Shown here: positions 6,013-62,520 of the stretch, in pieces
How positions within the stretch are numbered: the first letter of the stretch is position 1
Layout: each line of letters begins with the position of its first letter
DNA from: Klebsiella pneumoniae
Lineage (GTDB): Bacteria > Desulfobacterota > Binatia > UBA12015
Direction: 5' to 3'
Length of the DNA: 64,000 nucleotides
Assembly (NCBI GenBank): GCA_945872365.1
Contig: CAMBZJ010000012.1
Span: forward strand, 1-64,000
The notes under the pieces: model-generated
What the model was told of the DNA's origin: nothing
The model's database searches: none
The model's input: the letters and a program-made list of their open reading frames with translations, nothing else
Position numbers and translations under genes: made by a program

Positions 6013-7130
6013 AGATCGCTCTGGTCCACGATTGGCTGGTCGGGATGCGGGGCGGGGAGAAGTGCCTCGACCTGATGTGCGAGCTGCTTCCGGACGCCGA
6101 GATCTTCACCCTGGTCCATGCGCCGGGATCGGTCGGCGCTCGTATCGAGTCGCGGCGGATCCACACCTCTTTCCTGCAACGGGTGCCTTTCGCGACGCGC
6201 GCCTATCCGTATTTCCTGCCGATCTTTCCCTGGGCGATCGAGCAATTCGACCTGCGCGGCTATGACGCGGTGGTGAGCGTCAGCCATTGCGTAGCCAAGG
6301 GCATCGTCCCGGCGCCTAGTTCCTGGCACGGCTGCTACTGCCTCACTCCGATGCGCTACATCTGGGACGCCTACGGCGCCTACTTCGACCGGGGCTCCCG
6401 TGCGCTACGCGTCGCCGGCCGGGTGGCGGCACCTTGGTTGCGGATGTGGGACGTGGCGTCCGCGGCGCGCGTCGACTCGTTCGTCGCGATTTCCGAGCAT
6501 GTTCGCCAGCGTATCGCCCGCTACTACCACCGGGAGTCGAGTGTCATCTATCCCCCGGTCGACGACTTCTTCTTCGCGGATCCCCCCTCGGACGAGCCCG
6601 GCGACTACTTCCTCTCGGTCGGCGCAGCCGCCCCGAACAAGCGACTCGACCTGACCATCGAGGCGTTCCGGCGTCTGAAACTTCCGCTGGTCGTGGTCGG
6701 CGCCGGGCCGGGCACGGATCGCCTCCGCCGCGAGGCGCCGCCGAACGTGTCGTTCTTCGGCTGGAGCACCGAGGCGGAGCTGGTCGCGCTCTACCAGCAA
6801 GCGCGGGCTCTGGTCTTTCCGGGCTACGACGACTTCGGACTCACCCCGCTCGAGGCGGCGGCGGTCGGCCGCCCGACGATCGCCTTCGCCGGTGGCGGTG
6901 CGCTCGAGACGGTCCTGGGCAACGGGCCCGCGCCGACCGGGGTGCTCTTCGAGGAGCAGACCGCCGACGGTCTGGTCGAGGGCGTCGAGCGTTTTCTGGC
7001 GGTGGAGGCCTCCTTCGATCCCGCCAGGCTTCGCGCGCATGCGGCGCCCTTCGCGCGGAGCGAGACGCGACAGGCGCTCGCGCAGTTCCTGCGGTCGGGC
7101 ATCGGATCCCGGGGGGTGGTGTCGTGCTGA
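6009..7130 (+). CDS. GT4 family glycosyltransferase (WbaZ-like)
   Basis: The 373-residue GT-B enzyme starts at a GTG that overlaps the preceding stop. The N-terminal block MKIALVHDWLVGMRGGEK and the SVSHCVAKG segment resemble WbaZ-type mannosyltransferases of O-antigen clusters. The C-terminal donor site has the YDDFGLTPLEAAAVGRP motif. It lies directly upstream of an initiating sugar-phosphate transferase, so it probably adds an early sugar. The mannose assignment rests on family resemblance only. Confidence 0.82.
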   Translation: MKIALVHDWLVGMRGGEKCLDLMCELLPDAEIFTLVHAPGSVGARIESRRIHTSFLQRVPFATRAYPYFLPIFPWAIEQFDLRGYDAVVSVSHCVAKGIVPAPSSWHGCYCLTPMRYIWDAYGAYFDRGSRALRVAGRVAAPWLRMWDVASAARVDSFVAISEHVRQRIARYYHRESSVIYPPVDDFFFADPPSDEPGDYFLSVGAAAPNKRLDLTIEAFRRLKLPLVVVGAGPGTDRLRREAPPNVSFFGWSTEAELVALYQQARALVFPGYDDFGLTPLEAAAVGRPTIAFAGGGALETVLGNGPAPTGVLFEEQTADGLVEGVERFLAVEASFDPARLRAHAAPFARSETRQALAQFLRSGIGSRGVVSC

Positions 7131-8533
7131 AGGAGCGCCACCAGATGTTCATCGGGCTGTTCGCGGCGGCCGATCTGCTGGTGCTCGGACTCGCGTGGAT
7201 CGGAGCGTATGCTCTTCGTTTTGTCTTCCCACTGGTGCCGGTGACCAAGGGCACGCCGCCCGCGGCGAACTACCTGGGGCTGCTGCCGGTCATCTGGGCG
7301 ATCTGGGGTCTGACCCTCCGCGCCGCCGGCCTCTACGACCCGATGCGCGGGCGAGCGGACGCCTCTGAGCGGCAGCGACTGCTCCGGGCCTCGTCGCTCG
7401 CGATGCTCGTGTTCACCGCGGTGAGTTTCCTGCTCTTCGAGAAAGCCTACCCGCTCTCCCGGCTGTTGCTGCTCACGTTCTACGTGCTGGGCACGACGGC
7501 GCTGGTGGTCGAGCGCTCGCTCGTCCGCGAGGTCCTCCGGGCGGGGCGCCGCCGCGGCTACAACCAGCGCCACGTTTTGATCGTCGGCGACGGCGACCTG
7601 GCCCGCGGGGTGGCCGAACGGATGGCGCGGCATCCCGAACTCGGGCTGCGCGTCTCTGGCTTTCTCAGCGACGAACCATCGCGGGTCGGTGCGCAGATCG
7701 AGGGCCGTCCGGTGCTCGGCACCTGGGAGGAGGTTTCGGAAGTCTCCGAAAGCCGGGGGATCGACCAGGTGGTCCTCGCCCTTCCGTTCGAGAGCCTGCC
7801 CCGGCTCGGCGGGCTCGTCGCGCGGCTCGACGGTGCCGTCGTCGACGTGAAGGTCGTGCCCGACATCGAGCGCTTCGTCAGCCTGAAGAGCGGCATCGAG
7901 GACTTCGAGGGCCTGCCGGTGATCGGGCTGCGGTCCACACCGCTCGCAGGGTGGGGGCGGGTTGCCAAGCGGGCGATGGACGTGGCCGGCGCCGCGGCCG
8001 CACTGGTCCTCTTCGCGCCCCTGTTCGCGCTCCTCGCCCTGCTGGTCAAGGCCTCCTCGGCCGGAACGGTCTTCTTCTCCCAGGAGCGGATGGGACTCGA
8101 CGGGCGGGTCTTCCGGGTCTGGAAGTTCCGCACCATGCGGCAGGACGCCGAGGCTGAGACCGGGCCGGTCTGGGCGGTCGAGGACGATCCCCGCCGGACC
8201 CGGATAGGCACCTTTCTGCGCCGGTTTTCGCTCGATGAGCTGCCGCAGCTCGTGAACGTCCTGCGGGGCGAGATGAGCCTCGTCGGCCCTCGGCCGGAGC
8301 GCCCGGTCTTCATCGAGGAGTTTCGCCGCCGCATTCCCCGGTACATGATGCGCCACATGGTCCAGGCCGGTATGACGGGCTGGGCGCAGGTACATGGCTG
8401 GAGGGGCAACACCCAGATCGAGAAGCGCATCCAGTACGACCTGTATTACATCGAGAACTGGTCCCTTTGGCTGGACCTGAAGATCCTCCTGCTGACCTTC
8501 GTCAGGGGGTTCACAGATCGCAACGCCTACTGA
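7124..8533 (+). CDS. Initiating polyprenyl-phosphate sugar-1-phosphate transferase (WcaJ/WbaP-type)
   Basis: This enzyme starts a lipid-linked glycan by moving a hexose-1-phosphate from UDP-sugar to undecaprenyl phosphate. From GTG 7124 the 469-residue protein has about four membrane helices (10-135), a Rossmann-like domain (about 150-245) and a catalytic sugar-transferase domain (275-469). KFRTM, SLDELPQL (catalytic Asp-Glu), VGPRPERP and a GMTGWAQVHGWRGNT end match WcaJ-type glucose-1-phosphate transferases. It overlaps the upstream gene by seven bases. A second enzyme of this class is fused to a Wzy-like domain at 46062-47987. Confidence 0.9.
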   Translation: MLKERHQMFIGLFAAADLLVLGLAWIGAYALRFVFPLVPVTKGTPPAANYLGLLPVIWAIWGLTLRAAGLYDPMRGRADASERQRLLRASSLAMLVFTAVSFLLFEKAYPLSRLLLLTFYVLGTTALVVERSLVREVLRAGRRRGYNQRHVLIVGDGDLARGVAERMARHPELGLRVSGFLSDEPSRVGAQIEGRPVLGTWEEVSEVSESRGIDQVVLALPFESLPRLGGLVARLDGAVVDVKVVPDIERFVSLKSGIEDFEGLPVIGLRSTPLAGWGRVAKRAMDVAGAAAALVLFAPLFALLALLVKASSAGTVFFSQERMGLDGRVFRVWKFRTMRQDAEAETGPVWAVEDDPRRTRIGTFLRRFSLDELPQLVNVLRGEMSLVGPRPERPVFIEEFRRRIPRYMMRHMVQAGMTGWAQVHGWRGNTQIEKRIQYDLYYIENWSLWLDLKILLLTFVRGFTDRNAY

Positions 8534-40192: not shown

Positions 40193-41575
40193 GTGAGCGA
40201 GAACGTTGTCGGAGGTCTCCGGGTCCCTCCGCAGAGCATCGAGGCCGAGGAGGCCGTGCTCGGCGGGATCCTGCTCGACAACCAGGCCCTCGAGCGCGCC
40301 GGCGACATCCTGGCCGAGGAGGACTTCTACCGGGAGTCGCACCGTCGCGTCTGGAGGTCTCTCGTCGAACTCGACCAGCGGCGCGAGCCGGCCGACGTCA
40401 TCACGGTGACGGAGTGCCTGAAGCGCCGCGGAGACCTCGACGCAGTCGGCGGCGCGGCGGCGATCGCCGAACTGGTCGAGCGCACGGCGACCGCGGCGAA
40501 CGTCATGCTCTACGCACGCATCGTCAAGGAGAAGGCTATCCTGCGCGGGCTCGTCGACGTGGCGAGCGACGTCGTGGGCCGCGCGATGAGCGGCAATACC
40601 GGCGACGTCGAGCAGTTCCTCGACGAAGCGGAGAACGCCGTCTACCGCATTTCCGAGCGGCGGGTCCGGGCCGGGTTCTCGAAGGTCGAAGAGATCATCG
40701 TCGGCTCGATCGAGCGCATCCAGCAACTCTACGAGCGGCGCGAACTCGTGACCGGCGTGCCCACCGGTTTCTACGAGCTGAACAAGCTGACAGCGGGTCT
40801 CCAGGGCGGCGACCTCATCATCATCGCCGGGCGACCCTCGATGGGAAAGAGCGCGCTCGCGACGAATATCGGTCAGAAGGCTGCGGAAGCCGGCTATCCG
40901 GTCGCGCTCTTTTCGCTCGAAATGTCCAAGGAATCTCTGGTGCTGCGCATGCTCTGCGGCGAGGCGCGCGTCGACGGGCAGAAGGTGCGCACCGGCCACC
41001 TCGGTGACCGCGAGATGCCCCGACTCGCGATGGCGGCAGCGAGGCTTGCCGAGCTTCCCTTCTACATCGACGACACGCCTGCACTCTCCGTCATGGAGGT
41101 GCGATCCCGTTCGCGGCGCCTCATGCGCGACGTCGGCCAGCGCGGCCTGATCATCGTCGACTACCTCCAGCTCATGCGCGCGAACCGGGACGTCGACAGT
41201 CGAGAGCAGGAGATCTCGATGATTTCGCGGTCGCTGAAAGGGCTCGCCAAGGAACTCGACGTCCCGGTCGTCGCGCTCTCGCAGCTCAATCGCCAGGTCG
41301 AGAGCCGGGCCGACAAGCGACCGATGCTCTCCGACCTGCGCGAGTCGGGTGCCATCGAGCAGGACGCCGACCTGATCGCCTTCGTCTACCGCGACGAGTT
41401 CTACAACAAGGCCTCCACCGAGGAGGGCGTGGCCGAGATCATCATCGCCAAGCAGCGCAATGGGCCGCTCGGCACGGCGAGGCTGCTTTTTCGCAAGGAA
41501 TACACCCTCTTCGAGAACCTGAGCGAGCGCGAGGAGGAGCCGGTGGGCGAGGAGCGCAACGCTTTCGAAATGTGA
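40193..41575 (+). CDS. dnaB: Replicative DNA helicase DnaB
   Basis: The hexameric helicase unwinds the fork on the lagging strand. From GTG 40193 (GAGGTG upstream) it has 460 residues; a GTG at 40148 would add 15. The N-terminal domain (VPPQSIEAEEAVLGGIL) is followed by the RecA-type motor with Walker A GRPSMGKSA, ALFSLEMS, the DYLQLM block and the SQLNRQVE motif. No intein or insertion is present. It is separated from its usual partner rplI. The stop is one base from the convergent thiE stop. Confidence 0.96.
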   Translation: MSENVVGGLRVPPQSIEAEEAVLGGILLDNQALERAGDILAEEDFYRESHRRVWRSLVELDQRREPADVITVTECLKRRGDLDAVGGAAAIAELVERTATAANVMLYARIVKEKAILRGLVDVASDVVGRAMSGNTGDVEQFLDEAENAVYRISERRVRAGFSKVEEIIVGSIERIQQLYERRELVTGVPTGFYELNKLTAGLQGGDLIIIAGRPSMGKSALATNIGQKAAEAGYPVALFSLEMSKESLVLRMLCGEARVDGQKVRTGHLGDREMPRLAMAAARLAELPFYIDDTPALSVMEVRSRSRRLMRDVGQRGLIIVDYLQLMRANRDVDSREQEISMISRSLKGLAKELDVPVVALSQLNRQVESRADKRPMLSDLRESGAIEQDADLIAFVYRDEFYNKASTEEGVAEIIIAKQRNGPLGTARLLFRKEYTLFENLSEREEEPVGEERNAFEM

Positions 41576-41576
41576 C

Positions 41577-42206
41577 TCAGGGAATGCGCCAGCGCCGGAC
41601 CAGGCTCGCGGGATCGGGCGCGGTTTCGAGCGCACCGATCATCGCAACGGCATCCGCACCGGCTGCGAGGACCGCATCGGCACGCGGCACGTCGATCCCG
41701 CCGATCGCGACGATCGGGAGTCGCACCGCGGCGCGCAGCGTGGCGAGGGCTTCCGGGCCGCGGGGCGATCGGGCGTCGCTCTTGCTCGACGTCGCGTAGA
41801 TCGCTCCGAAGCCGATGTAGTCGGCGCCGTCGGCCTCGGCCGCGCGAGCCTCGTCCGCGTCGTGGGTAGAGACCCCGATGACGGCCCGGGGCCCGAGGAT
41901 CCGGCGGGCGTCGGCGATGGCGAGGTCCTCCTGTCCCAGGTGGACGCCGGCGGCGCCGGCGATGGCCGCGATGTCGCAGCGGTCGTTGACGATGATCCCG
42001 GCGCCGGTGTGCGCGGCGACTTCGACCAGCTCGCGCGCGAGGGCGAGATGCGCGCCATCCCCGAGAGTCTTCGCGCGGAGTTGCAGCCAGGGCGCCCCCG
42101 CCTCGAGCAGGACGCGGGCGAGATCCCGCGCCCGGTCGATGCGATGGTCGCGCACGTCCACGATCGGGTAGAGCCGGGCAAAACGAGGAGGAGTGCGGCG
42201 CTTCAT
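41577..42206 (-). CDS. thiE: Thiamine phosphate synthase
   Basis: This TIM-barrel enzyme joins HMP-pyrophosphate and thiazole phosphate to thiamine phosphate. The 209-residue protein has QLRAKT (42-47) for pyrophosphate binding, VNDRCDIA, GVHLGQEDL, GVSTHDADEA and the phosphate-binding IGGID near the C-terminus. All are canonical. It is convergent with dnaB with a one-base gap. The 111 bases upstream show no TPP-riboswitch elements (no CUGAGA or ACC-U-GAUC blocks), so regulation is unclear. Confidence 0.95.
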   Translation of the reverse strand: MKRRTPPRFARLYPIVDVRDHRIDRARDLARVLLEAGAPWLQLRAKTLGDGAHLALARELVEVAAHTGAGIIVNDRCDIAAIAGAAGVHLGQEDLAIADARRILGPRAVIGVSTHDADEARAAEADGADYIGFGAIYATSSKSDARSPRGPEALATLRAAVRLPIVAIGGIDVPRADAVLAAGADAVAMIGALETAPDPASLVRRWRIP

Positions 42207-42231
42207 CGGCAGGTTGGGCAGTTCGATAACG

Positions 42232-42262
42232 AAAAAGGGGCGGCGGGTTCACCCGCCGCCCC
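42232..42262 (-). terminator. Intrinsic terminator downstream of the YdcF-like gene
   Basis: On the minus strand an 11-bp all-GC stem (42252-42262 with 42237-42247) with a 4-base loop is followed by TTTTT (42236-42232). It lies 56 bases beyond the stop of the YdcF-like gene and just before thiE, separating the two transcripts. Confidence 0.9.
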
Positions 42263-42317: not shown

Positions 42318-42962
42318 TCAGTTTGCGCGAAGTCGCGCCGGAAGGAAGTAGCGCAACTCATAGAGAATCGTCTTGGCCGCCTCGACGAAGACCGCGATCA
42401 GCGAGTGTTCGTCCCACCACCAGGCGGGCCCGCTTGTCCGGGGGCCGCATGCGAGCAGCGCGACCCGCGCGCCGGCGGCACCCAGCGCGATCCGCAGGGA
42501 CCGGCGCGCCCGGCGCGAGTGCAGGGGCGAGGTGACGGCGACAATCTCGCGCGCCTCGTGCGCCTCGGCCCAGTCGGCCAGTGCGCGAGCGTCCTCCCAG
42601 GTCGAGGTGCCTTCCGGGACGATGAACTCCACGGCCTCGGGGACCCCGGCCGCCCGTGCGATCCGCGCACCCACCTCCGCGTCGGTCATCGGCTGGCCGA
42701 CGGCCGCGAGCGAGCGGTCGAGAGAGCCGCCTGTGAACACGATGCGCGGGGCGACGCCGCGACGCCAGAGTTCGGCTGCGCAAAGCGGCCGGGAGGGAAT
42801 CTCGCCGGGAAACACGTAGATCGCATCGGCACGTGCGGGCAGGGGATCGGAGACGGTCATGAGGGTCGGCAGAGAGAGAAAAGCGCCACCGGCAGCGAGC
42901 AGGACGATCAAGGCATGTGGCCATCGCGGACGTCCGCTCGCGGTCGGGTGTTCGGGAGTCAC
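42318..42962 (-). CDS. YdcF family (DUF218) membrane-anchored protein
   Basis: The 214-residue protein has one N-terminal membrane helix (about 15-40) and a DUF218 domain. An ADAIYVFPGE block, an FTGGSLDRS Ser/Gly block, the VPEGTSTWEDARAL motif and AVTSPLHSRRARRSL are the conserved family elements. Members such as ElyC/SanA act in envelope lipid-carrier or peptidoglycan metabolism, which suits its place at the edge of a glycan locus. Its ATG overlaps the stop of the upstream HTH gene (ATGA), so both are translated together. Confidence 0.85.
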   Translation of the reverse strand: MTPEHPTASGRPRWPHALIVLLAAGGAFLSLPTLMTVSDPLPARADAIYVFPGEIPSRPLCAAELWRRGVAPRIVFTGGSLDRSLAAVGQPMTDAEVGARIARAAGVPEAVEFIVPEGTSTWEDARALADWAEAHEAREIVAVTSPLHSRRARRSLRIALGAAGARVALLACGPRTSGPAWWWDEHSLIAVFVEAAKTILYELRYFLPARLRAN

Positions 42963-43240
42963 GTTTCCCGGCGGCTCCCGTCGTCCGCCTTGGCGCGCTG
43001 GCCGATCACGCGATCGTGGTGCGCGACGAGCGTCTCCAGCTGGCGCAGCCTCGTCAGGGTAGGCTCGTCGCCGGCCAGCGCCCGGCGACCACCTTCGATG
43101 AAGGCGTTGCGCACGGTGTACGCGGTGGTGTGGCTCACTTGGTAGAATTCGCAGATCTGCTGAAAACTTCGTGTTTCCTTCAGGACGTCGAGGGCGAGAG
43201 CCACCTTTTCTTCGGGTGTGAGTTTCTTTCTTGCTCGCAT
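42959..43240 (-). CDS. Stand-alone transposase-type helix-turn-helix protein
   Basis: The 93-residue protein has a homeodomain-like HTH (LTPEEKVALALDVLKE ... FQQICEFYQVSHTTAYTVR) followed by a short Leu-rich coiled segment (TLTRLRQLETLVAHHDRVIGQ). This is the layout of IS3-type OrfA proteins. No orfB, terminal inverted repeats or target duplication is visible, and it is coupled in frame order to the YdcF gene. It is either an IS relic or a domesticated DNA-binding regulator. GAGGAAC precedes the ATG. Confidence 0.65.
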   Translation of the reverse strand: MRARKKLTPEEKVALALDVLKETRSFQQICEFYQVSHTTAYTVRNAFIEGGRRALAGDEPTLTRLRQLETLVAHHDRVIGQRAKADDGSRRET

Positions 43241-43264: not shown

Positions 43265-44803
43265 TCAGACTGGTGGGCGGGCGTCGGGGCGTTCGACCGT
43301 GGCGGGTGCCAGCCGGACCAGTGGTTCGAGGAGGCGGACGGCACCCGCGGAGGCGGGCAGGCGGCCGCGGATCCAGTCGAGGCCGCGCATGAGGTCCTCG
43401 CGCTGGAAGAAGCCGAGCGCGAGCAGCGTGAGCGGATAGATGCCGAGAAGCAGAGTCTTGACCACGATCGAGAGGATGACGTTGCTCATCGTGAGCTCGA
43501 TCGAGGCCAAGTAGATGCCGATCGCGAGCCCGATCGCCGAGAGCAGCCGCGTCCAGTGATAGGGAACGTAGTACTCGCGGAGCGAAAGGGTCAGCGCGAC
43601 GCAGACCTGGACGAGGAAGCCGAAGAGTGTCGCCCAGGCCGCGCCCATCATTCCCCAGCGTGGGATCAGCAGGAAGTTCAAGGCGATGTTGACGATGGCG
43701 GCGGCCACGACCGCCGCCATGCGGAGATAGGACTTCTTGGAAAGCAGGATCCCGATGTTGAACGTGAAGGTGAGTCCGTCGAGGGCAAGCGCGAAGCCGA
43801 CGACCGGCACCACGGAGGCGGCGGCGAAGTAGGCCGGGGTGGCCATGACCCGGAGAAGCTCAGGGGCTGCGACCGAGAGCCCGAGCCACATGAAGAAGAG
43901 AAGCGCCGTGTAGTAGGTCGTCATCTGGGCGAACAACTCGGGCGCGTCGTCCTGCTTGCGGTGTGCGAAGACGAACTGCGGCCAGGAAAGCTGGAACGCG
44001 GTGACGACGAAGGAGAGAATCTCCCCGAAGCGGTAGCCCAGGGAATAGATGCCGACCTCCCCGACGGATGCGTAGTGCTTGAGGAACCAGCGATCGAGGA
44101 GGTCGAGCGCGAAGGCCGCGGCGCCGGCCGGGATGAGCGGGAGTCCGAAGATCAACTGCTTCTTGATGTCGTCCCAGTGGAAGCCGGCTCGCAACATGCG
44201 AAAGGTGACCCCGGTGAGGAGTACGCACATGGTGAAGTCGGCCAGGAACTGACTCAGGACGACGCCCGTCGCCCCCATGTGGATGCCAGCGACGAGAGCG
44301 AGTGCGAGGAAGGTCGTGAGCCCGTTGCGCAGCACCGACCAGGACGCGTAACGATGAGCCTGGTCGCCGGCGCGCATCAGCGAGAAGGGCATGCGCAGCA
44401 GCACCTTGCAGAGCACGGTCGCCGTGCCGATGAGCATCAGGTACCAGAGCTTCGAGTCTCCGAGAATGGTTGCAGCGAGGGGGCCGGAGAAGAGCAGCGG
44501 GATCGAGGCGAGAGGGAGTGCAAAGAGGAGCACGATCCACATGGCGGCCGCCACGACCCGTTCCCGGGCCTCGTCCGAGTCCTTGTCGTAGTAGAAGCGG
44601 AACAGCGAGAAGCCTTGGCCGAGGTTCATCAGGACGAACATCACCTGGCTGTACATGGCGACCAGCGCGATCACGCCGTAGTCCGAGGGACTCAGGTAGC
44701 GGGTGTAGAGGGGAATGAGCAGGAAACCTATGAGCTTCACCCCGTAGTTGCCGAGGCCGTAGATCAGCGTGTTTCCGAGCAGAGTGCGAAATTTGTCGAT
44801 CAT
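43265..44803 (-). CDS. Wzx-like lipid-linked oligosaccharide flippase (MATE/PST superfamily)
   Basis: The 512-residue protein has about 12-14 membrane helices with the family start FRTLLGNTLIYGLGNYGVKLIGFLLIPLYTRYLSPSDYG split across helices 1-2. Wzx proteins move undecaprenyl-linked repeat units across the inner membrane for polymerisation. The C-terminal tail of about 40 residues is soluble and Pro/Arg-rich. The ATG lies only 18 bases from the ATG of the divergent beta-helix gene, with no Shine-Dalgarno. It is the only flippase in the window and would serve both glycan clusters. Confidence 0.88.
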   Translation of the reverse strand: MIDKFRTLLGNTLIYGLGNYGVKLIGFLLIPLYTRYLSPSDYGVIALVAMYSQVMFVLMNLGQGFSLFRFYYDKDSDEARERVVAAAMWIVLLFALPLASIPLLFSGPLAATILGDSKLWYLMLIGTATVLCKVLLRMPFSLMRAGDQAHRYASWSVLRNGLTTFLALALVAGIHMGATGVVLSQFLADFTMCVLLTGVTFRMLRAGFHWDDIKKQLIFGLPLIPAGAAAFALDLLDRWFLKHYASVGEVGIYSLGYRFGEILSFVVTAFQLSWPQFVFAHRKQDDAPELFAQMTTYYTALLFFMWLGLSVAAPELLRVMATPAYFAAASVVPVVGFALALDGLTFTFNIGILLSKKSYLRMAAVVAAAIVNIALNFLLIPRWGMMGAAWATLFGFLVQVCVALTLSLREYYVPYHWTRLLSAIGLAIGIYLASIELTMSNVILSIVVKTLLLGIYPLTLLALGFFQREDLMRGLDWIRGRLPASAGAVRLLEPLVRLAPATVERPDARPPV

Positions 44804-46061: not shown

Positions 46062-47987
46062 TCAGTGTCCGAGTTTGACCGCGATCCGATAGTCAGCGGG
46101 TCGTTCGCCCAGGCGCACGACGATGCCGATGCCGATGCCGAGAAGGCCCCAGAACAGGAGCTGGATCGCGATGTTGTTGAAGGGGTCGAAGCTCTGCATG
46201 GCGACGCAGAAACCGATGAGTCCGGCCATGACGGCCCAGAGAATCTCCCGCAGGCCGGGATCCTCGGTGGAGCGCTGGGCGCGGTAGAGTGCGAACAGGG
46301 ACTGACCGAGGATCCAGAGCATGGCGAGCCAGCCGAGGAGCCCATTTTCGAGGAGGAGGCGCACGTTGCCGTTCGCGTCCGAGATGACCTGGGAGGTGAA
46401 CTGGTCGCTGCCGAGTTTCACCTGCCCGAGCGTCCGGGGGCCGAGCCCGAACAGCAGTTGGCGCGGGCTCATCTCGGAGATCGCATGGCAACCCGCCGGG
46501 CTGCTCCCGCAGACGAGCGACCACCAGCCGGTTTCGGGCATGCTGCGCATCAGGGAGAGGGCTGCCGCGGGTACGACGATCGCGAGGAACACGACAGCCC
46601 AGAGCGGCGAGAAGTGCCGCCAGAGGTAGATCGCCGCGATGATCGAGAGGGTGATGAGTCCCGCCGGATGCCGAGTGAGGAGAATCCCGAGCAGGCAGAG
46701 GGTTGAGGCGGCAACCCAGAAGTCGCGCCCCTCGCGGGTGTGGGCGCGGGATAGGCTGCAGAGGACGCAGGGAACCCCGAGCAGCAGGTAGGTCGCGAGC
46801 GCGACCGGGCTCCCGAGGGTGGACGAGATGCCGGTCGGCATCATCCCGAGGCCGGTCTCCATCGGACTCGAGTGCGCCGGCATGTAGTCGGCGAATACGA
46901 CTTCGAGGATCCCTACGGCGGAGATCGCGACCGAGGTGAGCGCCACCGCCGAGACTGCGCTGCGAGCGAAACTGCGGGTGAAGGTGCCGTTGACGATGGC
47001 GAGCAGGACCATGAAGCCGGTGATGAGGTAATACACGGCTCCGCGAACCGCCTGGACGCGGGCCTCGGGCGCCGCGAAGGCGGCTGAGGCGAGCGACAGC
47101 AGGAGAAAGCAGGCCAGCGGCAGGTTGATCGGCGTGCGGTAGAGGCTGATGCGATCGCTCGGGCTGCGTCGCATCAGCATCCAGAGCGCGGCAAACGCGA
47201 TCAGGCCGTGCAGGGGATTCAACTTCGCGCCGCCGACGCTGACGTACATCCTCTCGAACGAGTCCGGCGGGATGAAGGAGACGAACAGGAGCAGGAGGAG
47301 CAGCGAGGCACCGAGCGTGATCCAGCGGTTGAGCAGCTTGAGGGCGGTCAGGCCCACCAGTTGGGCGTCGAGCCAGAGCGAGCGGTGCGTGACGTAGAGC
47401 TGGTCGTAGCGCAGCTTGTTCCGCGGAGAGGTGAAATAACCGCCGCGGACCTGGGCGAGGCCGGTCATGCCGGGGGCGACGCGGAAGCGATCGGCGTAGT
47501 GCTCGATCTCGCCCAGGTACCGATCGAGAAAGATCGGGCGAAGGGGGCGGGGCCCGGCGAAGTTCATCTCGCCGCGGAGCACGTTGATCAGCTGGGGAAT
47601 CTCGTCGAGCTTCGACCGCTTCAGGAACTTGCCGATCGGCGTGTAGAAGTCGTCCTGCGGGCTCAGCAGGCGAGCGCCGATCTGCCGCTCCGACCCCTCG
47701 CGGAGGGTGCGGAACTTGAACATGGTGTAGAGTTGCTGGTTTTTGCCGACACGCACGCCGCCGTAGAAGAGCGGACCCTTGCTGCTGAGTTTCACGGCGA
47801 GGGCGACCAGGGCGAGGACCGGCGACAGGAGCACGATCGCGACGACGGCGAGGATCGACTGTGCCAGGTAGCGGATACGCGATTCAGGCAGTCCGGGAGG
47901 TATCTCCCGTCCCGGGGCATGCTCCTCGGAAGCGAGCTGGCCCGTGGCGATCGCATCGTTGCGGAGTGCGAGTCTGGGTGTGGACAA
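46062..47987 (-). CDS. Fusion of initiating sugar-phosphate transferase with Wzy/O-antigen ligase-type polytopic domain
   Basis: The 641-residue protein combines two functions normally on separate chains. Residues 40-220 form a sugar-transferase domain with one membrane helix, KFRTL (91-95), KLDEIPQL with catalytic D128-E129, FAGPRPLRP and APGMTGLAQVRG. Residues 225-635 hold about ten membrane helices with a large loop near 500 (FGLGPRTLGQ) like O-antigen ligases/polymerases. The start is TTG 47987 with GGGAG nine bases upstream. It may both start and polymerise or transfer the same glycan. A long leader contains an inverted repeat. Confidence 0.85.
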   Translation of the reverse strand: MSTPRLALRNDAIATGQLASEEHAPGREIPPGLPESRIRYLAQSILAVVAIVLLSPVLALVALAVKLSSKGPLFYGGVRVGKNQQLYTMFKFRTLREGSERQIGARLLSPQDDFYTPIGKFLKRSKLDEIPQLINVLRGEMNFAGPRPLRPIFLDRYLGEIEHYADRFRVAPGMTGLAQVRGGYFTSPRNKLRYDQLYVTHRSLWLDAQLVGLTALKLLNRWITLGASLLLLLLFVSFIPPDSFERMYVSVGGAKLNPLHGLIAFAALWMLMRRSPSDRISLYRTPINLPLACFLLLSLASAAFAAPEARVQAVRGAVYYLITGFMVLLAIVNGTFTRSFARSAVSAVALTSVAISAVGILEVVFADYMPAHSSPMETGLGMMPTGISSTLGSPVALATYLLLGVPCVLCSLSRAHTREGRDFWVAASTLCLLGILLTRHPAGLITLSIIAAIYLWRHFSPLWAVVFLAIVVPAAALSLMRSMPETGWWSLVCGSSPAGCHAISEMSPRQLLFGLGPRTLGQVKLGSDQFTSQVISDANGNVRLLLENGLLGWLAMLWILGQSLFALYRAQRSTEDPGLREILWAVMAGLIGFCVAMQSFDPFNNIAIQLLFWGLLGIGIGIVVRLGERPADYRIAVKLGH

Positions 47988-48330
47988 GGTCTTGAACTCC
48001 CGTGGGTTTTCGAGAGGTGCTTGGTCGATTCCGCCGTCGCCTACCCGCCCGATCGCCCTCTCGAAATCGCTAGCAGCACCGGCGGCACCGCGTCAAAGAT
48101 TCGGTGACCGCTCAGTCGAGTCGTGGTGGGCGGCGACGATCGCAGTTTCGCAAGCGGGTGGGCAGGCCGACAAGGCCACCGGGCGGCTTATGTGAAGAAT
48201 CCGGCTCGTAACGTGACGAAACGGGCAGGATACGGGGACTCGGGAGCGGCGCGAGGCCCGGTGCGGCCTGCGGTGGTCGCGTGCGCCGCTCCGGCAGAGC
48301 TGTCCGACGAAGTCAGGCCGGACGAACCGG
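47988..48330. other. 343-base intergenic region upstream of the transferase-Wzy fusion gene
   Basis: No gene is recognisable. On the minus strand TTGACG (48096-48091) is a plausible -35 box for the fusion gene with only a weak TAGCGA-like -10 about 18 bases further, giving a leader near 70 bases. The inverted repeat at 48008-48066 lies in that leader. A short GCCGG/CCGGC hairpin (48317-48331) abuts the asnB stop without a U-tract. Confidence 0.4.
48008..48066 (-). repeat. 10-bp inverted repeat in the leader of the fusion gene
   Basis: TTTCGAGAGG (48008-48017) and CCTCTCGAAA (48057-48066) are perfect reverse complements separated by 39 bases. In the mRNA they would form a stem ending about 20 bases before the TTG start. 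It could be an RNA switch-like structure, an operator, or chance. Confidence 0.55.
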
Positions 48331-50226
48331 CTAGCCAAGCGGGGCAGAGGGGACACCGCCCAACCGATCGTACCAGGTCTGGAACATGAGGAGGGTCCAG
48401 ATGTCCCGGCTGCAGTCTCGCTCCTTGGCCTCGTGGGCCTGGATCAGGCCCGAAACGACCTCCGGACGGAAAAGGCCGGTCGCCTCGATTCGCGCAGGGG
48501 CGAGGGTGTCACGAACCCGCTCGCGCAAGGGGCCGAGGAGCCAACTCGGGATCGGCACGTTGAAGCCGCGCTTGGGGCCCCCGGCCGTGGTTGCCGGAAG
48601 ACGATCGGCCATCGCCCTTCGCAGGAGCACCTTGGTCGTGAGTCCCCGCATCTTGAAGCGGCTGGGGATGGTCGCAACGCGCTCGACGAGCAGATGATCG
48701 AGGAACGGAACTCGTCCTTCGAGCGAGGTCGCCATCGTCATGCGATCCGCCTTCACCAGCATGTCGCCCTCGAGCCCGAGATGCGTGTCCACGGCGAGCA
48801 GCCGGGAGAGGAGATCCCTCTGCGGGCTTCCGGCCGCCGCGGATTCATAGAGGCGAACGGTCGGCTGCAGCGTGGGATCGACGGCGCGGTAAAGTTCCCG
48901 CTTGCGCTCTTCGTCGAAGATCGCCTTCCACGAGAAGTGCGCTTCGAGCGGCGGACTCGAGGCGCCCGCGGCGAATCGCTTCGCCATGTAGTCGAAGCTC
49001 ACTCGGCCGTGGGAGACCGGCAGCAGGCCGGCGAGTCGCGGAACGAGCTGCCGCAGCGGGCCCGGAAGGGCACGTCGGTACAGCTCGGCGAGCCGGGTCG
49101 CGGTGTAGGTCTTGTAGCCGGCGAAGACCTCGTCGCCGCCTTCTCCGGAGAGGGCGACCTTCACGTGTTCGCGGGCCAGACGCGACACGCAAAGAACCGG
49201 GATCGCCGAGGAATCGGCATATGGTTCGTCGAAGGAGTCGACGAGCCGCGGCACGAGATCGACGGTGTCCGGCGTCACGACGAGTTCGTGGTGCTCGGTC
49301 TCGAAGTGGCGCGCGACCGCGCGGGCCCCATCGAGTTCGCTGAAGGTCTTCTCCTCGAAACCGATCGAGAAGGTGCGCAGCGGACCGGTGTGAAAACGCC
49401 GCATCGAGGCGACGATGGCCGCCGAGTCGACCCCACCGGAGAGAAAGACGCCGAGCGGAACGTCGGCGACCAGGTGGCTGCGGACCGCTTCGTCGACGAG
49501 TTCTCGAACGATCTCGACTGCCTCGTCCTCCGTCCGGATGGTGGGGTCCGGTTCATAGCGGAGCTGCCAGTAGCGCTCGAAGCGGACCGATCCCTTCTCG
49601 GCGACGAGCATTGTCCCGGGCAGGAGTTTGCGGGCGTCGCGGAAAATCGTCGCCGGCGCCGGCACGTAGGTGAGGCTCAGGTAGTCGTGGAGGGCCTGGT
49701 GGTCGATCGTGCGGTCGAGTCCGGCTGCGAGCAGGCTCTTCAACTCGGAGCCGAAAAGCAGCCGCCCGCCGCCGAGGGCGTAATGGAGCGGCTTGATGCC
49801 GAGGCGATCGCGCGCGACCACGAGGCGGCGCTCCCTCGCGTCCCAGAGCGCGAAGGCGAACATGCCGCGCAGCCGGGCGGCGCAGCCCGTTCCGAACTCC
49901 TCGTAGAGATGGACGATGACCTCGGTGTCGCTGTGCGTCGCGAAGCGATGACCACGAGCCTCGAGATCGCTCCGCAGCTCCTGGAAGTTGTAGATCTCCC
50001 CGTTGAGGATGACCGTGACCGTACCGTCCTCGTTGGAAATCGGCTGGTGCCCGCCCGCGAGGTCGATGATCGAGAGACGACGCATGCCCATCGCCAGTGG
50101 TCCGTCGACGTGGAAGCCCTCGTCGTCGGGGCCTCGGTGGACGATGACGTCGCACATCGCGCGGGCGAGGTCCCGGGGCGCGGGGACGCCCGGGTCGAGC
50201 GCGAGGAATCCGGCGATGCCACACAT
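48331..50226 (-). CDS. asnB: Glutamine-hydrolysing asparagine synthetase-type amidotransferase (AsnB/XrtA-associated type)
   Basis: The 631-residue enzyme has an N-terminal class II glutaminase domain starting MCGIAGF with C2 as nucleophile, RLSIIDLAGGHQP and NGEIYNFQEL. The C-terminal ATP-pyrophosphatase domain has the PP-loop SGGVDSAA and SGEGGDEVF. Start ATG 50226 is fixed by the need to expose the Cys. The length and glycan-locus position resemble amidotransferases of XrtA/PEP-CTERM loci, which may amidate sugar acids. It is the last gene of the 14-gene minus-strand operon, 34 bases after a deacetylase gene. Confidence 0.9.
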   Translation of the reverse strand: MCGIAGFLALDPGVPAPRDLARAMCDVIVHRGPDDEGFHVDGPLAMGMRRLSIIDLAGGHQPISNEDGTVTVILNGEIYNFQELRSDLEARGHRFATHSDTEVIVHLYEEFGTGCAARLRGMFAFALWDARERRLVVARDRLGIKPLHYALGGGRLLFGSELKSLLAAGLDRTIDHQALHDYLSLTYVPAPATIFRDARKLLPGTMLVAEKGSVRFERYWQLRYEPDPTIRTEDEAVEIVRELVDEAVRSHLVADVPLGVFLSGGVDSAAIVASMRRFHTGPLRTFSIGFEEKTFSELDGARAVARHFETEHHELVVTPDTVDLVPRLVDSFDEPYADSSAIPVLCVSRLAREHVKVALSGEGGDEVFAGYKTYTATRLAELYRRALPGPLRQLVPRLAGLLPVSHGRVSFDYMAKRFAAGASSPPLEAHFSWKAIFDEERKRELYRAVDPTLQPTVRLYESAAAGSPQRDLLSRLLAVDTHLGLEGDMLVKADRMTMATSLEGRVPFLDHLLVERVATIPSRFKMRGLTTKVLLRRAMADRLPATTAGGPKRGFNVPIPSWLLGPLRERVRDTLAPARIEATGLFRPEVVSGLIQAHEAKERDCSRDIWTLLMFQTWYDRLGGVPSAPLG

Positions 50227-55632: not shown

Positions 55633-56832
55633 TCATCCGATCGCCGGCAGGTAGCGCCAGAAGTCGTTGTTCAACGCGCAGCACTTCGCGCACTTCGGGA
55701 AGAGCCGGCGCTTCTTCAGGGTCCGACGGAAGGTCTGGTAGGAGTCGTTGTTCCAGATCTCCTTGACGCTCTTGTCGCGCACGTTGCCGAAGGCGACGTC
55801 GATCGAGCAGGAGTAGACGTCGCCGTAGGGGCTGATCCGGAAGGTCTTCCAGGGATAGAAGCACTTCTCGACGAACGCGTACTCGTCGTCGAGGAAACGA
55901 CGCTCCATCTCCTCCGGCGTCTTGAGGGGTGGACCGAAGCCGATCGAGATGCCGTACTCCTCACCCTTGCGGATCGCCTTCTGCGACTCCTCGTAGAGGG
56001 CTTGGCCGTCGACCTGCCGGAGGTACATGGGCAGATCCTGGTCCTCTTCCTTGTGGTGCACCGGGAGTGGGATGAGCTTCTCGGTCTGCTCGTTGTGTTC
56101 CGGGGTGGTGTAGAACATGTAGTCGAAGTCCACCGTGTCGACTCCGGTGTCCTTGAGCCAGTCGAGAACCTCGCTGTAGCGGTGCTGGTTCAGGGCGGAA
56201 ACCGTGACGGTGATCCCGATCTTCGGGCGCTTCACCCCGAGTTCGCGCTTGGCCTCCTGGACGTTGCGGATGCCCTCGAGGAGCCGACGGAAGCTGCCCT
56301 TGCCGCGCCGGATCTCGTCATGGAGATCGTCAGGCCCGTCGATCGAGATCGAGAGGGCATGCGGCTTCAGCGAGACCAGTTGGCGTGCTTCGTCGGGCCG
56401 GAGAAACCAGCCGTTCGTGTTGATGCACAGGTGGATCGGCGTCGCCGTGATGTGTTCGACGATCTCGAAGACGTCCTTGCGCAGGAAGACTTCGCCCCCG
56501 GTGATGGTCATGTCGCCGACGCCCATCTCCGCGATGTCGGTGATGACCCGCTTGACCTCCTCGGTCGACAGCTCGGCCTGCTGGCGCGACTTGATCAAGT
56601 CAGGGTCGGACTTGTCGTGCATGATTCGGGGCAGGTCGAGCGGGCACATCTGGCAGGAAAGGTTGCACCGCAGGGTGAGTTCGAAGGTCACCGACTGGGG
56701 GGTTCCGGCGCGCCCGTTCCCGACGAGATAGGGCAGGTAGTACTTGTAGGACTTCAGGTTGCTCTTGGTGATGCCCCGGTCGCGCAACCAGCCCTTCATG
56801 TCGTCGAGGACCGAGTTTTCGTCGTTCGTCAT
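55633..56832 (-). CDS. Radical SAM/SPASM-type protein in a glycan locus
   Basis: From ATG 56832 (GGAG upstream) the 399-residue protein has the radical SAM cluster motif C56-C60-C63 in RCNLSCQMC, a GGEVFLRKD block, and a C-terminal SPASM-like Cys set (CFYPWKTFRISPYGDVYSC and CAKCCALN) for auxiliary Fe-S clusters. The substrate is unknown. The long N-terminal segment before the CxxxCxxC is shared by radical SAM proteins of surface-glycan clusters. Its position between the formyltransferase and the Gfo/Idh/MocA gene suggests modification of a sugar or lipid-linked intermediate. Confidence 0.88.
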   Translation of the reverse strand: MTNDENSVLDDMKGWLRDRGITKSNLKSYKYYLPYLVGNGRAGTPQSVTFELTLRCNLSCQMCPLDLPRIMHDKSDPDLIKSRQQAELSTEEVKRVITDIAEMGVGDMTITGGEVFLRKDVFEIVEHITATPIHLCINTNGWFLRPDEARQLVSLKPHALSISIDGPDDLHDEIRRGKGSFRRLLEGIRNVQEAKRELGVKRPKIGITVTVSALNQHRYSEVLDWLKDTGVDTVDFDYMFYTTPEHNEQTEKLIPLPVHHKEEDQDLPMYLRQVDGQALYEESQKAIRKGEEYGISIGFGPPLKTPEEMERRFLDDEYAFVEKCFYPWKTFRISPYGDVYSCSIDVAFGNVRDKSVKEIWNNDSYQTFRRTLKKRRLFPKCAKCCALNNDFWRYLPAIG

Positions 56833-56875
56833 TTGGATCTCCGCAATGCCCCCGGTCGGGGCCTGAGTCGAAGGT

Positions 56876-57694
56876 TTAGAGGAAGCGGCGGCCCTGCCTG
56901 CGCAGGCGCCGACCGTCCTCGCGGGTCGGAAACGAGTTGTAGGTGGCCTGGGCGCGGTCGTTCGGAATCGTGTCCGCGACGCCGCGTTCCAGCCGGTCGA
57001 TCGCCTCGATGACGAGGCGGGCACCGAGTGTCTTGGTCTTGCCGATCAGAGTGTCCTGCGTGTCCTCGGGCTCGATGGCGACCTTCTTCTGCAGGAGGAT
57101 CGGCCCGTCGTCGAGGTCTTCGTTCATGAAGTGCACGGTGGTACCGGTCTCGTGCTCGCCGTTCACCAGGACCCAGAAGCTCGGCAGGCGTCCGCGGTAG
57201 CGTGGCAGCAGAGCGCCGTGGACGTTGATGCAGCCGAGCCGCGGTAGTTCCAGGATCCCCTTGCGGAACTTCTGGCTTGCGTTCACCGACAGGACGAGGT
57301 CGAGATCGAGGGAGCGTAGCCGCTCAAGGTACTCGGGTGCGTTCACGCTGGTCGTCTCCAGGATGGGTATGCCGTGTTTCCGGGCGGCGGCCGCAACCGA
57401 GTGCAGACCGGGGACCGGCACCCGCTCCCCGAGGATCCCGAGGCCGCGGCGCCATGCGTAGCGCACCGACTGCTTCAGGAACTGCACTGGTCCGTAGAGG
57501 GCCAGGTGGTCTCGCAGGGTCGAGGACCAGGTCTGCTTCGGCATCAACGTGGGAAGAATCGTCATGCCGACGACGTTGGGGCGTCGCGCGGACAGCACGG
57601 TATCCAGGAATTGCGGCAGGAAGAGACAGTCCTCCTGCGTCACGACGAAGACGTGCAGCGGCTTGCGCGGCAGGGCAGGGCCGGGATCGCTCAT
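56876..57694 (-). CDS. Methionyl-tRNA formyltransferase-like enzyme, probable sugar N-formyltransferase
   Basis: The 272-residue protein has the formyltransferase catalytic block CINVHGALLPRYRG with N157 and H159, and the DLDDGPILLQ segment carrying the catalytic Asp. It lacks the C-terminal tRNA-binding domain of Fmt and has a divergent N-terminus. N-formylation of an amino sugar, as in ArnA or the WlaRD/VioF group, is therefore likely. No aminotransferase lies in the window to provide the amine. It overlaps the deacetylase gene upstream by four bases. Confidence 0.85.
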   Translation of the reverse strand: MSDPGPALPRKPLHVFVVTQEDCLFLPQFLDTVLSARRPNVVGMTILPTLMPKQTWSSTLRDHLALYGPVQFLKQSVRYAWRRGLGILGERVPVPGLHSVAAAARKHGIPILETTSVNAPEYLERLRSLDLDLVLSVNASQKFRKGILELPRLGCINVHGALLPRYRGRLPSFWVLVNGEHETGTTVHFMNEDLDDGPILLQKKVAIEPEDTQDTLIGKTKTLGARLVIEAIDRLERGVADTIPNDRAQATYNSFPTREDGRRLRRQGRRFL

Positions 57695-59803: not shown

Positions 59804-60967
59804 TCAGGCGACCCGGGCGGCTCCGGGCGGTTCGCTCGCCGCCGGCTCGGGGACGTCGACTCCGACACGGGCCAATTCGTCTCGGTAGAGACGGTCGATC
59901 GATCTCAACATCGTCGCCTGGTCGTACTCGCGGCGGACCCGGCGCTCGGCCTCCGTGCCCAGGCGCTTGGCCAAGGCTGGATCGCGCAGGATTCGCAGGA
60001 CGCCCTGCGCAAGCGCGTCGGCATCGCGGGTCGGCACGACAATGCCCGATTCCCCGTGCACGACCACCTCCGCGCTGCCGCCTGCCGACGTCGTGACCAC
60101 CGGTCGGCCCAAGGCCATCGCTTCGAGGAGGGCATTGGGCATGCCCTCGATGACGGAGGAGAGCATGTAGCAGTCGAAGCCCGCCATGAGCTCGGCGACG
60201 TCGCGTCGCTTGCCGAGGAAGCGAACGGTGCCATCGAGCCTCAGGTCCCGTGCCATCGCCTCGAGTTCGACGCGCAGGGCGCCGTCACCGACGATGTCGA
60301 AACGGACGGCGGGGATCGCGTCGCGCACGATGACCGCGGCCCGAAGGGCGAATTCGTAGCCCTTCTTCCAGCCGAGCCGGCCCACCATGCCCACGACTGG
60401 CAAGTCTTGGCCTCCGGTTGCGGGGGCGGCTTGGAAGGAGCGCGAGGGCAGCGAGACCCCATTGGGAATCAGGACCATGCGATCCGTCGGGCACCACTCA
60501 TGCTCTGCCACCAGGTCGCGGACCGCCCTGGCGTTCACCGTGACGCGGTCGGCGAGGCGATTGGAGAGTGCCGCGGCGAGGCGGCGATCGAGTCGATCGT
60601 AGCGGTCGAGACTCCGCTTACTGACGAGCGTCACCGGTCGGCGACCGAGGCGTCCGACCAGTGCCGCGAGGAAATTGCCCTCGAAGAGGTAGCCGTGGAT
60701 GACGGCGACGTCGCGCGCCCGCATTTCCCGGGCCACCCGTCTTGCCGCCGAGAGCGTACGCGTCGACATAAGGGTCGAGTCGATGCCGAAGCTCCTGACG
60801 GGGACGCCTTCCTGCTCGAAGACCGGTGCGAGGTCGCCGGGCTCGGCACTCGCGGTCCACAACTCCAACTCCCAGGTGCCGCGGTCGAGGCCGCGCACGA
60901 CCTGGAGGAGGTGCGACTGGGCGCCACCGATCTGCAGGTGGTCCACGACGTAGGCTACACGGGTCAT
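59804..60967 (-). CDS. GT4 family glycosyltransferase
   Basis: From ATG 60967 the 387-residue GT-B enzyme begins VAYVVDHLQIGGAQSHLLQV, with VGMVGRLGWKKGYEFAL opening the donor domain and EGMPNALLEAMALGRPVVTT as EX7E motif. The start overlaps the Wzy-like gene (ATGA). It follows the operon order Wzz, deacetylase, Wzy, GT4, GT2. Sugar specificity is unknown. Confidence 0.87.
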   Translation of the reverse strand: MTRVAYVVDHLQIGGAQSHLLQVVRGLDRGTWELELWTASAEPGDLAPVFEQEGVPVRSFGIDSTLMSTRTLSAARRVAREMRARDVAVIHGYLFEGNFLAALVGRLGRRPVTLVSKRSLDRYDRLDRRLAAALSNRLADRVTVNARAVRDLVAEHEWCPTDRMVLIPNGVSLPSRSFQAAPATGGQDLPVVGMVGRLGWKKGYEFALRAAVIVRDAIPAVRFDIVGDGALRVELEAMARDLRLDGTVRFLGKRRDVAELMAGFDCYMLSSVIEGMPNALLEAMALGRPVVTTSAGGSAEVVVHGESGIVVPTRDADALAQGVLRILRDPALAKRLGTEAERRVRREYDQATMLRSIDRLYRDELARVGVDVPEPAASEPPGAARVA

Positions 60968-62520
60968 GCCGCGACCTTCGGGCGGTAGAGAGCGCGGCTC
61001 GCGGCCCGGCGCGCAGCCGGGGTGTTCGCTTTGAGGCCGGGCAGGGCGCGGGCTTTCAGTTCCTCGTCGAAGGCCCAGCGCGACAGGACGATCGAGAATG
61101 CCGCGATGAAATAGATGTGCACCTCGAGCCATACGTCGGCGAAGATCGAGAAGAAGAGGAAGAGGATGATGTAGAGGTTCAGGAAATCCGGAAGATCCGG
61201 TAGCACTGGGTGGTTCTTGTACTTCTCCCGCAAGCGCTGGATGCGCGCATAAACGAATGCGAAGAGCGTGAGGTAGGCGAGGGTCGTGACGATACCGCCC
61301 TCGGCCCACGACCAGACGTAGGAGTTGTGCGGCGGCTTGTAGGACCCGTGCAGGTACATGTTGAACCAGCGGAAGTTGCCGAGGCCGACGCCGAAGATCG
61401 GATAGCTACCGATGATCGAGAGCGCGTCCTCGAGCGTCGCGACGCGCTGCTCGGTCGAGTGGGTTCCCTCGCTGTACTGCTGCGGGCTGAAGGGGTTCAG
61501 GTTCAGGAGACGCTCTTGGCTGCTTTCCGGGAGCACGAAGAAAAAGATCAGAACGCCGAGAACGAGCCCGCTGATCGAGCCGACGATCTTCCACTGCCGG
61601 GGGACCTGGTTGCTCGTCAGCAGGGTCAGGCCGACGATGCCGAGCCCGATGAAACCGCTGCGGGAGGCGCTGAGAAGGACCAGCGGGACACAGCCGATGG
61701 CGCCGGCGATCGCGCCCAGGCGCAGCAGCGGGGATTTTGCGATGTGGGCGAGGTAGAGAAAGAGCCCGATACCCACGTTCACCATGAAGGCGAAGCGGTT
61801 CGCGTTCTGAGCCCATCCGACGAGCTTCGATGTGATACGACCGTCGGCGGTCCCGCGGGCGATGTCTAGCCCGATGCTCGGAAGAACGGTAATGATGCAA
61901 AGTGCGAAGATGATGAGTACGGTCCGAAGTTGCTTGGGCTCGCGGATCCAGTTGACGAAGAAGATCGTGAAGACGATGCGCGAGGCCAGTTCGAAGAAGA
62001 ATCGCGGCGTCACGTTTGCGTCGCCATATGCCCCCGATGCGCCGCGCGCATGCGCCAGTTTCGGTAGCATGTGCTTTACGTTCGGCAGGAAAAAGATGCT
62101 GAGTGTGTAGGTGAAGAGCAGGAGCCCGGCGATCAACAGGAGCATCCGGATCTCGGGCTCGCGCATGAACCAGTAGTCGCCTTCGCGGTACAGCTGGATC
62201 GCCATCACGACGAGTAGCGTCATGCCGATCAGATTGTTGATCGTGAAGGGTCCGATGCCGCGCAGGGCCGCCGGGTAGGAGACCAGCATCGTCGTCATGA
62301 TGACGATCAGGCCGATGCTCGGCCGGTAGAGAACGATGGTTCCCCCCATGAGCAGGAAGGTGACGATCGACGCACGCACCAGCGCGGTGTCGGAGACGAG
62401 GGTGGCGATGCCGAGCCCGATCGCGGCGAGTACGAGTGCGATCAAGACCCACGGCGGTGCCGATGGTGCGGGAGTCGCACTCCGCAGGGCAAGCCGCGCC
62501 GGGCCCGAGGCGGTCGTCAC
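60964..62520 (-). CDS. O-antigen ligase/Wzy-type polymerase (Wzy_C family)
   Basis: The 518-residue inner-membrane protein starts at GTG 62520, overlapping the deacetylase stop. About 12 membrane helices are visible; SASRSGFIGLG sits in a helix and the large periplasmic loop with GTHSTEQRVATLEDAL, FGVGLGNFRW and PPHNSYVWSWAEGG matches the Wzy_C/O-antigen ligase domain. It can either polymerise repeat units or ligate glycan to an acceptor. This is a second such protein in the locus besides the fusion at 46062-47987. Confidence 0.88.
   Translation of the reverse strand: MTTASGPARLALRSATPAPSAPPWVLIALVLAAIGLGIATLVSDTALVRASIVTFLLMGGTIVLYRPSIGLIVIMTTMLVSYPAALRGIGPFTINNLIGMTLLVVMAIQLYREGDYWFMREPEIRMLLLIAGLLLFTYTLSIFFLPNVKHMLPKLAHARGASGAYGDANVTPRFFFELASRIVFTIFFVNWIREPKQLRTVLIIFALCIITVLPSIGLDIARGTADGRITSKLVGWAQNANRFAFMVNVGIGLFLYLAHIAKSPLLRLGAIAGAIGCVPLVLLSASRSGFIGLGIVGLTLLTSNQVPRQWKIVGSISGLVLGVLIFFFVLPESSQERLLNLNPFSPQQYSEGTHSTEQRVATLEDALSIIGSYPIFGVGLGNFRWFNMYLHGSYKPPHNSYVWSWAEGGIVTTLAYLTLFAFVYARIQRLREKYKNHPVLPDLPDFLNLYIILFLFFSIFADVWLEVHIYFIAAFSIVLSRWAFDEELKARALPGLKANTPAARRAASRALYRPKVAA

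Follow-up and report, generated by a model that had tools for sequence, protein, structure and literature searches.

In the usual view, separate proteins carry out the initiation and the late steps of lipid-linked glycan assembly. Small monotopic phosphoglycosyl transferases (PGTs) of the PglC type comprise a re-entrant helix and a PF02397 core with an Asp-Glu dyad, and PglC ends after this catalytic core. The large PGTs of the WbaP/WcaJ type possess an extra membrane bundle and a PF13727 domain, both N-terminal. Fusion of an additional domain to the PGT core, either N- or C-terminally, is known from the bifunctional monotopic PGTs (Bi-PGTs; PMC10942596). The O-antigen ligase WaaL (7tpg; CAZy clan GT-C1) has a 12-helix fold with a large periplasmic loop near the C-terminus. 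In this enzyme R191 and R265 bind the diphosphate and H313 activates the acceptor; the ligase histidine is replaced by Asp or Glu in most polymerase families, and the conserved residues of the known families reportedly all face outward (PMC10920833).

Here we describe a gene that joins a PGT to a membrane domain of the ligase fold. No description of this architecture was found in the papers searched in full text, a scope that stops short of the main survey of PGT fusions (O'Toole 2021, PNAS).

Results and Discussion

Identification of the Fusion Gene

The window analyzed here is a stretch of DNA of 64,000 nucleotides from a genome of 3.1 Mb. The gene at 46062..47987 on the minus strand encodes a protein of 641 amino acids. 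A previous sequence-only reading had proposed that this chain combines an initiating sugar-phosphate transferase with a Wzy/ligase-type membrane domain. Indeed, both halves are contained in one uninterrupted open reading frame with exactly these boundaries, and homologous single reading frames occur in about 25 genomes. The TTG start assigned in that reading was confirmed; a likely ribosome-binding site GGGAG (47997..48001, minus strand, by direct reading) is located 9 nt before it, and TTG is also the start, at this position, in the sister species L007. The motifs KFRTL, KLDEIPQL and GPRPLRP, on which the assignment of the first half had been based, are all present; across 24 homologues they are invariant or almost invariant.

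Reading frames were extracted from 26 homologous loci, 24 of which were aligned. The reading frame is open across residues 215-230, with neither a stop codon nor a frameshift, both in the window protein and in all 26 loci, which come from separately assembled genomes. The genomes were assembled from metagenomes, and many spurious open reading frames occur in the GC-rich sequence; both would be compatible with an assembly or annotation artefact. Such an artefact is nevertheless extremely improbable: the junction is open alike in 26 loci assembled independently and from different sites, and dN/dS is far below 1 on either side of it. The fusion of a PGT with a ligase-fold domain is real.

The N-Terminal Phosphoglycosyl Transferase Domain

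Residues 37-223 (47319..47879, minus strand) form a monotopic PGT domain with the folds of PglC and WbaP. Using hmmscan, Bac_transf (PF02397) was found at residues 44-219 with E 3.7e-49 and 167.1 bits at a cut-off of 27. This is the sole Pfam match of the protein, and PF02397 was matched by 24 of 24 fusions. The corresponding part of the structural model (residues 31-221) matched PglC (8g1n) with Z 19.1 and WbaP (8t53) with Z 20.6, and the re-entrant helix comprises residues 37-68. Alignment to PglC placed the catalytic Asp-Glu dyad D128-E129 of KLDEIPQL (codons at 47601..47606, minus strand) on the DE of the PglC motif SLDELPQL. The dyad is invariant in all 24 fusions. An acid of the "DPR" region was also considered for the catalytic dyad and was rejected, since the alignment to 8g1n puts the dyad in LDEIPQL. 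Fold and intact dyad suggest that a UDP-sugar is most likely the substrate of this half, which would pass its sugar-1-phosphate on to undecaprenyl phosphate (Und-P) at the cytosolic face of the membrane.

Re-entrant helix, PF02397 core, Asp-Glu dyad and fold are thus common to the fusion and the PglC type, but the fusion continues beyond the core with a membrane domain of 418 residues. The catalytic core and the likely role as an initiator of surface polysaccharide are shared with the WbaP/WcaJ type. In contrast to these large PGTs, the fusion has only about 36 residues ahead of the core, and its membrane domain is added at the C-terminus and resembles a ligase. With a core that starts at residue 37 there is no N-terminal four-helix bundle, and a match to PF13727 was not found either. 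In carrying an extra domain fused to the PGT core the protein resembles the Bi-PGTs, for which no partner of the ligase fold was found in the papers searched.

Fold and Topology of the C-Terminal Domain

Residues 224-641 (46065..47318, minus strand) constitute a membrane domain with 12 predicted helices and the O-antigen ligase (GT-C1) fold. An AlphaFold2 model calculated with the family alignment had a mean pLDDT of 77 for the whole protein and 79 for the C-terminal half alone. In a structure search with this model residues 218-629 matched WaaL (7tpg_B) with Z 23.4 and an rmsd of 4.7 over 348 residues; the next-best matches were the SEDS polymerases RodA/FtsW with Z 11-14. The isolated domain gave Z 23.5 against 7tpg and the same order of structural matches as the full protein. 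Profile homology was also detectable: when the C-terminal half was compared by hhalign with an HMM built from 29 canonical Wzy_C proteins encoded in these genomes, the probability was 98.2% over 277 columns. For the window protein itself hmmscan gave no match to Wzy_C (PF04932), even at E<1, and in a Wzy_C scan of the whole genome it obtained 10.3 bits (E 0.65), while six other proteins obtained 40-67 bits. Wzy_C was matched by 9 of the 24 fusions (best E 1.3e-7), and a single one of them, from genome G030, passes the PF04932 cut-off with 35.3 versus 31.7 bits. Because of the WaaL fold, the HMM-HMM match and the direct Wzy_C matches in relatives, the C-terminal half belongs, as a divergent member, to the WaaL/Wzy_C superfamily. 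A structure search against viral proteins with this half and a scan of viral contigs yielded nothing of use.

Helices and charges point to 12 membrane passes, with the PGT half and the C-terminal tail in the cytosol. The large loop of residues 483-547 (46347..46541, minus strand) would on the same grounds be periplasmic and corresponds to the large loop of WaaL. The sequence-only reading had therefore recognized the type of the membrane domain from its sequence features, as the WaaL fold demonstrates, but its expectation of a Pfam match was borne out for Bac_transf only, and its count of about ten membrane helices has to be raised to 12. Prediction for the full chain gave the PglC/WbaP fold followed by the WaaL fold, and the predicted topology puts the two sites on opposite membrane faces, as had been supposed.

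Ligase Catalytic Residues

PDB sequence searches with the profile of the C-terminal half and with the canonical Wzy_C neighbour returned no match, so residues were mapped through the Wzy_C proteins of Binatia. The 24 aligned fusions were compared with 12 unfused relatives, which had been picked regardless of the residues in question, and residue correspondence in this comparison derives from sequence alignments at a low identity of about 15%. The unfused relatives have the His and the first Arg in 12 of 12 cases; the second Arg is present in 10 and replaced by Lys in 2. Unlike WaaL, the C-terminal half is fused to a PGT and has no His at the usual place in any of the 24 fusions. This position is occupied by Ala, Leu, Thr, Asn, Arg, Ser or Glu, an acid not being consistent. 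In the window protein Ala538 (46374..46376, minus strand) is aligned with WaaL His313.

A further difference from WaaL is the absence of both diphosphate-binding arginines in the clade of the window, which comprises family f1 and L018. Where ligases have the "SR" motif, the window protein has TRHPA (residues 438-442; 46662..46676, minus strand), with Pro441 for the first Arg, and the second Arg is replaced by a Cys-Gly-...-Cys loop. The cysteines of this loop, C493 and C500 (46488-46511), are conserved throughout the clade including L018 and may form a disulphide. Both arginines are likewise absent from the f5 clade. The f6/f8 clade has kept them ("SR", "RR"), and in it a His stands three positions later, at 541 (NMHLTL), which makes an altered active site plausible there.

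Since the His and both arginines were lost in the lineage of the window, its C-terminal half most likely no longer performs a transfer of the WaaL type, as judged from these alignments. In the clade of the window R315, E362, R518 and E547, further charged residues close to the outer face, are invariant and might represent a new site. In this clade 35% of the positions in cytosolic loops and 19% of those in periplasmic loops are invariant, which contrasts with the outward-facing conservation reported for the known families and favours a role other than that of a ligase; over all 24 fusions both kinds of loop are conserved about equally (6% versus 5% invariant). The ligase site would have been either lost or rebuilt in a domain that is still under selection, and sequence alone is compatible with both.

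Genomic Context

The fusion gene ends a run of sugar genes. It follows, on the same strand and after 343 bp, the gene of an asparagine-synthase-like amidotransferase of the XrtA type (48331..50226, minus strand; TIGR03108-like, below cut-off), which is its conserved preceding neighbour. Beyond the fusion gene there is a beta-helix gene on the opposite strand and then, still in the same cluster, the gene of a Wzx-type flippase (43265..44803, minus strand; PF01943, E 7e-19), a neighbour in many relatives. The same arrangement is found throughout family f1 and partly in f5, f6 and f8. The earlier description of the fusion gene as set apart, with its own promoter region, could not be upheld: the gene keeps its position after the asparagine-synthase gene in relatives, and a scan of the 343-bp gap revealed neither a sigma-70-like promoter nor a terminator.

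The cluster also encodes an XrtA-system deacetylase (TIGR03006, 338 bits, cut-off 276), TIGR03097- and TIGR03088-like proteins that score below their cut-offs, and a separate canonical Wzy_C protein with a PHNSY motif (60964..62520, minus strand; PF04932, 55.5 bits, cut-off 31.7; TIGR03097-like). The fusion sits in an exopolysaccharide cluster of the XrtA/PEP-CTERM type. One exosortase match (PF09721) was obtained in the host genome, on another contig (C26), and an exosortase was found in only 4 of 11 fusion genomes, on a different contig where present. All of the fusion genomes tested (15) encode separate Wzy_C proteins, usually on the contig that carries the fusion. With separate Wzy_C and Wzx proteins encoded, the fusion protein appears to initiate a Wzx/Wzy-type pathway that can do without it in the polymerase, ligase and flippase steps.

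Some other genes of the contig deserve mention. About 40 kb away, at 6434-8533 (plus strand), lies the gene of a further initiating transferase, which belongs to the large WcaJ-type PGTs and scores above the TIGR03023 cut-off. Beside the flippase gene a 93-amino-acid reading frame (42959-43240, minus strand) resembles the helix-turn-helix part of a transposase and is possibly the remnant of a mobile element. The reading frame at 41401-42252 (minus strand) matches no Pfam family; several related clusters contain short stretches of it at 76-83% identity, and it may be an unnamed conserved gene. The most conserved gene of the cluster, with 78-89% identity across f1, encodes a radical SAM/SPASM protein (55633-57024, minus strand), which is unusual for exopolysaccharide clusters.

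Distribution, Selection and Origin

The architecture is shared by other genomes. Full-length fusions were found in about 25 Binatia genomes of at least four families when 118 related genomes were searched; they are 41-85% identical over both halves and contain no internal stops. A scan of public contigs with two short conserved patterns detected homologues mostly in Candidatus Binatia or deltaproteobacterial metagenome-assembled genomes from lakes, soil and groundwater, and a few under other labels. In a phylum-wide sample of 395 genomes full-length C-terminal domains occurred only in Binatia, and the search with this domain gave only weak partial matches outside the class, mostly to separate ligase-like proteins. 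A tblastn search of plasmids gave no match. Given two motifs in the pattern scan and 395 genomes in the phylum sample, independent fusions in other groups are possible.

Six pairs of fusions were compared by NG86: the PGT half had a dN/dS of 0.06-0.13, the C-terminal half one of 0.07-0.17. Purifying selection acts strongly, and to the same degree, on both halves, so that both are maintained. Among the relatives sampled the fusions form one clade in the tree of the PGT half and one in that of the C-terminal half, each with 100/100 support.

Six of the unfused PGTs nearest in sequence (L032, L033, L035, L072, L078 and L086, all from related genomes) directly precede a ligase-family gene on the same strand. 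In these loci a large PGT gene is followed by a canonical O-antigen ligase gene, likely as a functional pair. At first sight L033 was a candidate for a fusion with one stop; it was rejected as an ordinary pair, a large PGT gene with a separate ligase gene immediately after it. As a model, such an adjacent pair is an arrangement from which the fusion could have arisen. A derivation of the C-terminal half from the neighbouring ligases of these pairs is unsupported, as it groups weakly with other ligases in the tree.

Function of the Fusion Protein

The best explanation, which we consider somewhat probable when its parts are taken jointly, is that the domains were fused once, early in Binatia, and that the product is a dedicated priming enzyme whose membrane domain, of ligase fold, has been repurposed, probably as a scaffold or carrier-lipid site. 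The N-terminal half would be the cytosolic priming PGT of the XrtA-type exopolysaccharide cluster. The C-terminal half would descend from an O-antigen ligase/Wzy_C protein, with the membrane-spanning 12-helix fold retained and, in the lineage of the window, the residues for diphosphate binding and acceptor activation lost. It probably holds the priming step beside the flippase and the separate Wzy_C protein, as a scaffold or as a domain that binds the carrier lipid. The fusion, the folds, the lost residues, the gene neighbourhood and the purifying selection are shown by the analysis; this role is inferred.

Alternatively, the protein could be a true bifunctional enzyme that combines cytosolic initiation with periplasmic polymerization or ligation in a rearranged active site, formed by the shifted His in the f6/f8 clade and by a new set of Arg and Glu residues in the clade of the window. 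We regard this as a tentative possibility. The modelled WaaL fold with its 12 helices and large periplasmic loop would suit such an enzyme, as would the strong purifying selection on this half. In f6/f8 "SR" and "RR" are kept and the His at 541 lies one helix turn from the usual place, R518 and E547 are invariant in the clade of the window, and other polymerase families have Asp or Glu where ligases have the His (PMC10920833). However, the clade of the window and the f5 clade lack both usual arginines, no conserved acid is found at the His position, and the cluster already encodes a canonical Wzy_C protein. The missing residues and the separate Wzy_C protein also speak against the channelling from initiation to polymerization or ligation envisaged by the sequence-only reading. 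Its other suggestion, a single-sugar lipid product made without a flippase, does not agree with the separate Wzx flippase encoded in the same cluster. An altered but active site in the C-terminal half is possible, and a single protein for both initiation and ligation or polymerization is possible but not favoured. In its specific form, in which one protein acts on both membrane faces, the PGT making Und-PP-sugar and a rebuilt periplasmic site processing the lipid-linked glycan, we consider the idea unlikely.

Handling of the carrier lipid by the C-terminal half, which would bind Und-P or Und-PP-sugar or move it across the membrane and thereby feed or unload the priming site, appears still less probable. 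The domain is fused directly to an enzyme that consumes Und-P, and its ligase-fold ancestor binds Und-PP (PMC10920833). On the other hand, the gene of a Wzx-type flippase is two genes away, and we know of no transport precedent for the ligase (GT-C1) fold. The dedicated priming enzyme with a repurposed membrane domain is our preferred explanation.

The fusion bears on the question, still open, of how the initiation and late steps of glycan assembly are kept together. The f6/f8 clade, with its arginines kept and its His shifted, and the clade of the window, in which all three residues are lost, offer a natural direct comparison. If the enzyme did act on both faces, the first and a late glycan step would be physically coupled by a set of residues unlike that of known GT-C1 enzymes. 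Kept stably across a bacterial class, the fusion either links both steps or shows that the ligase fold has been reused as the membrane partner of a priming enzyme.
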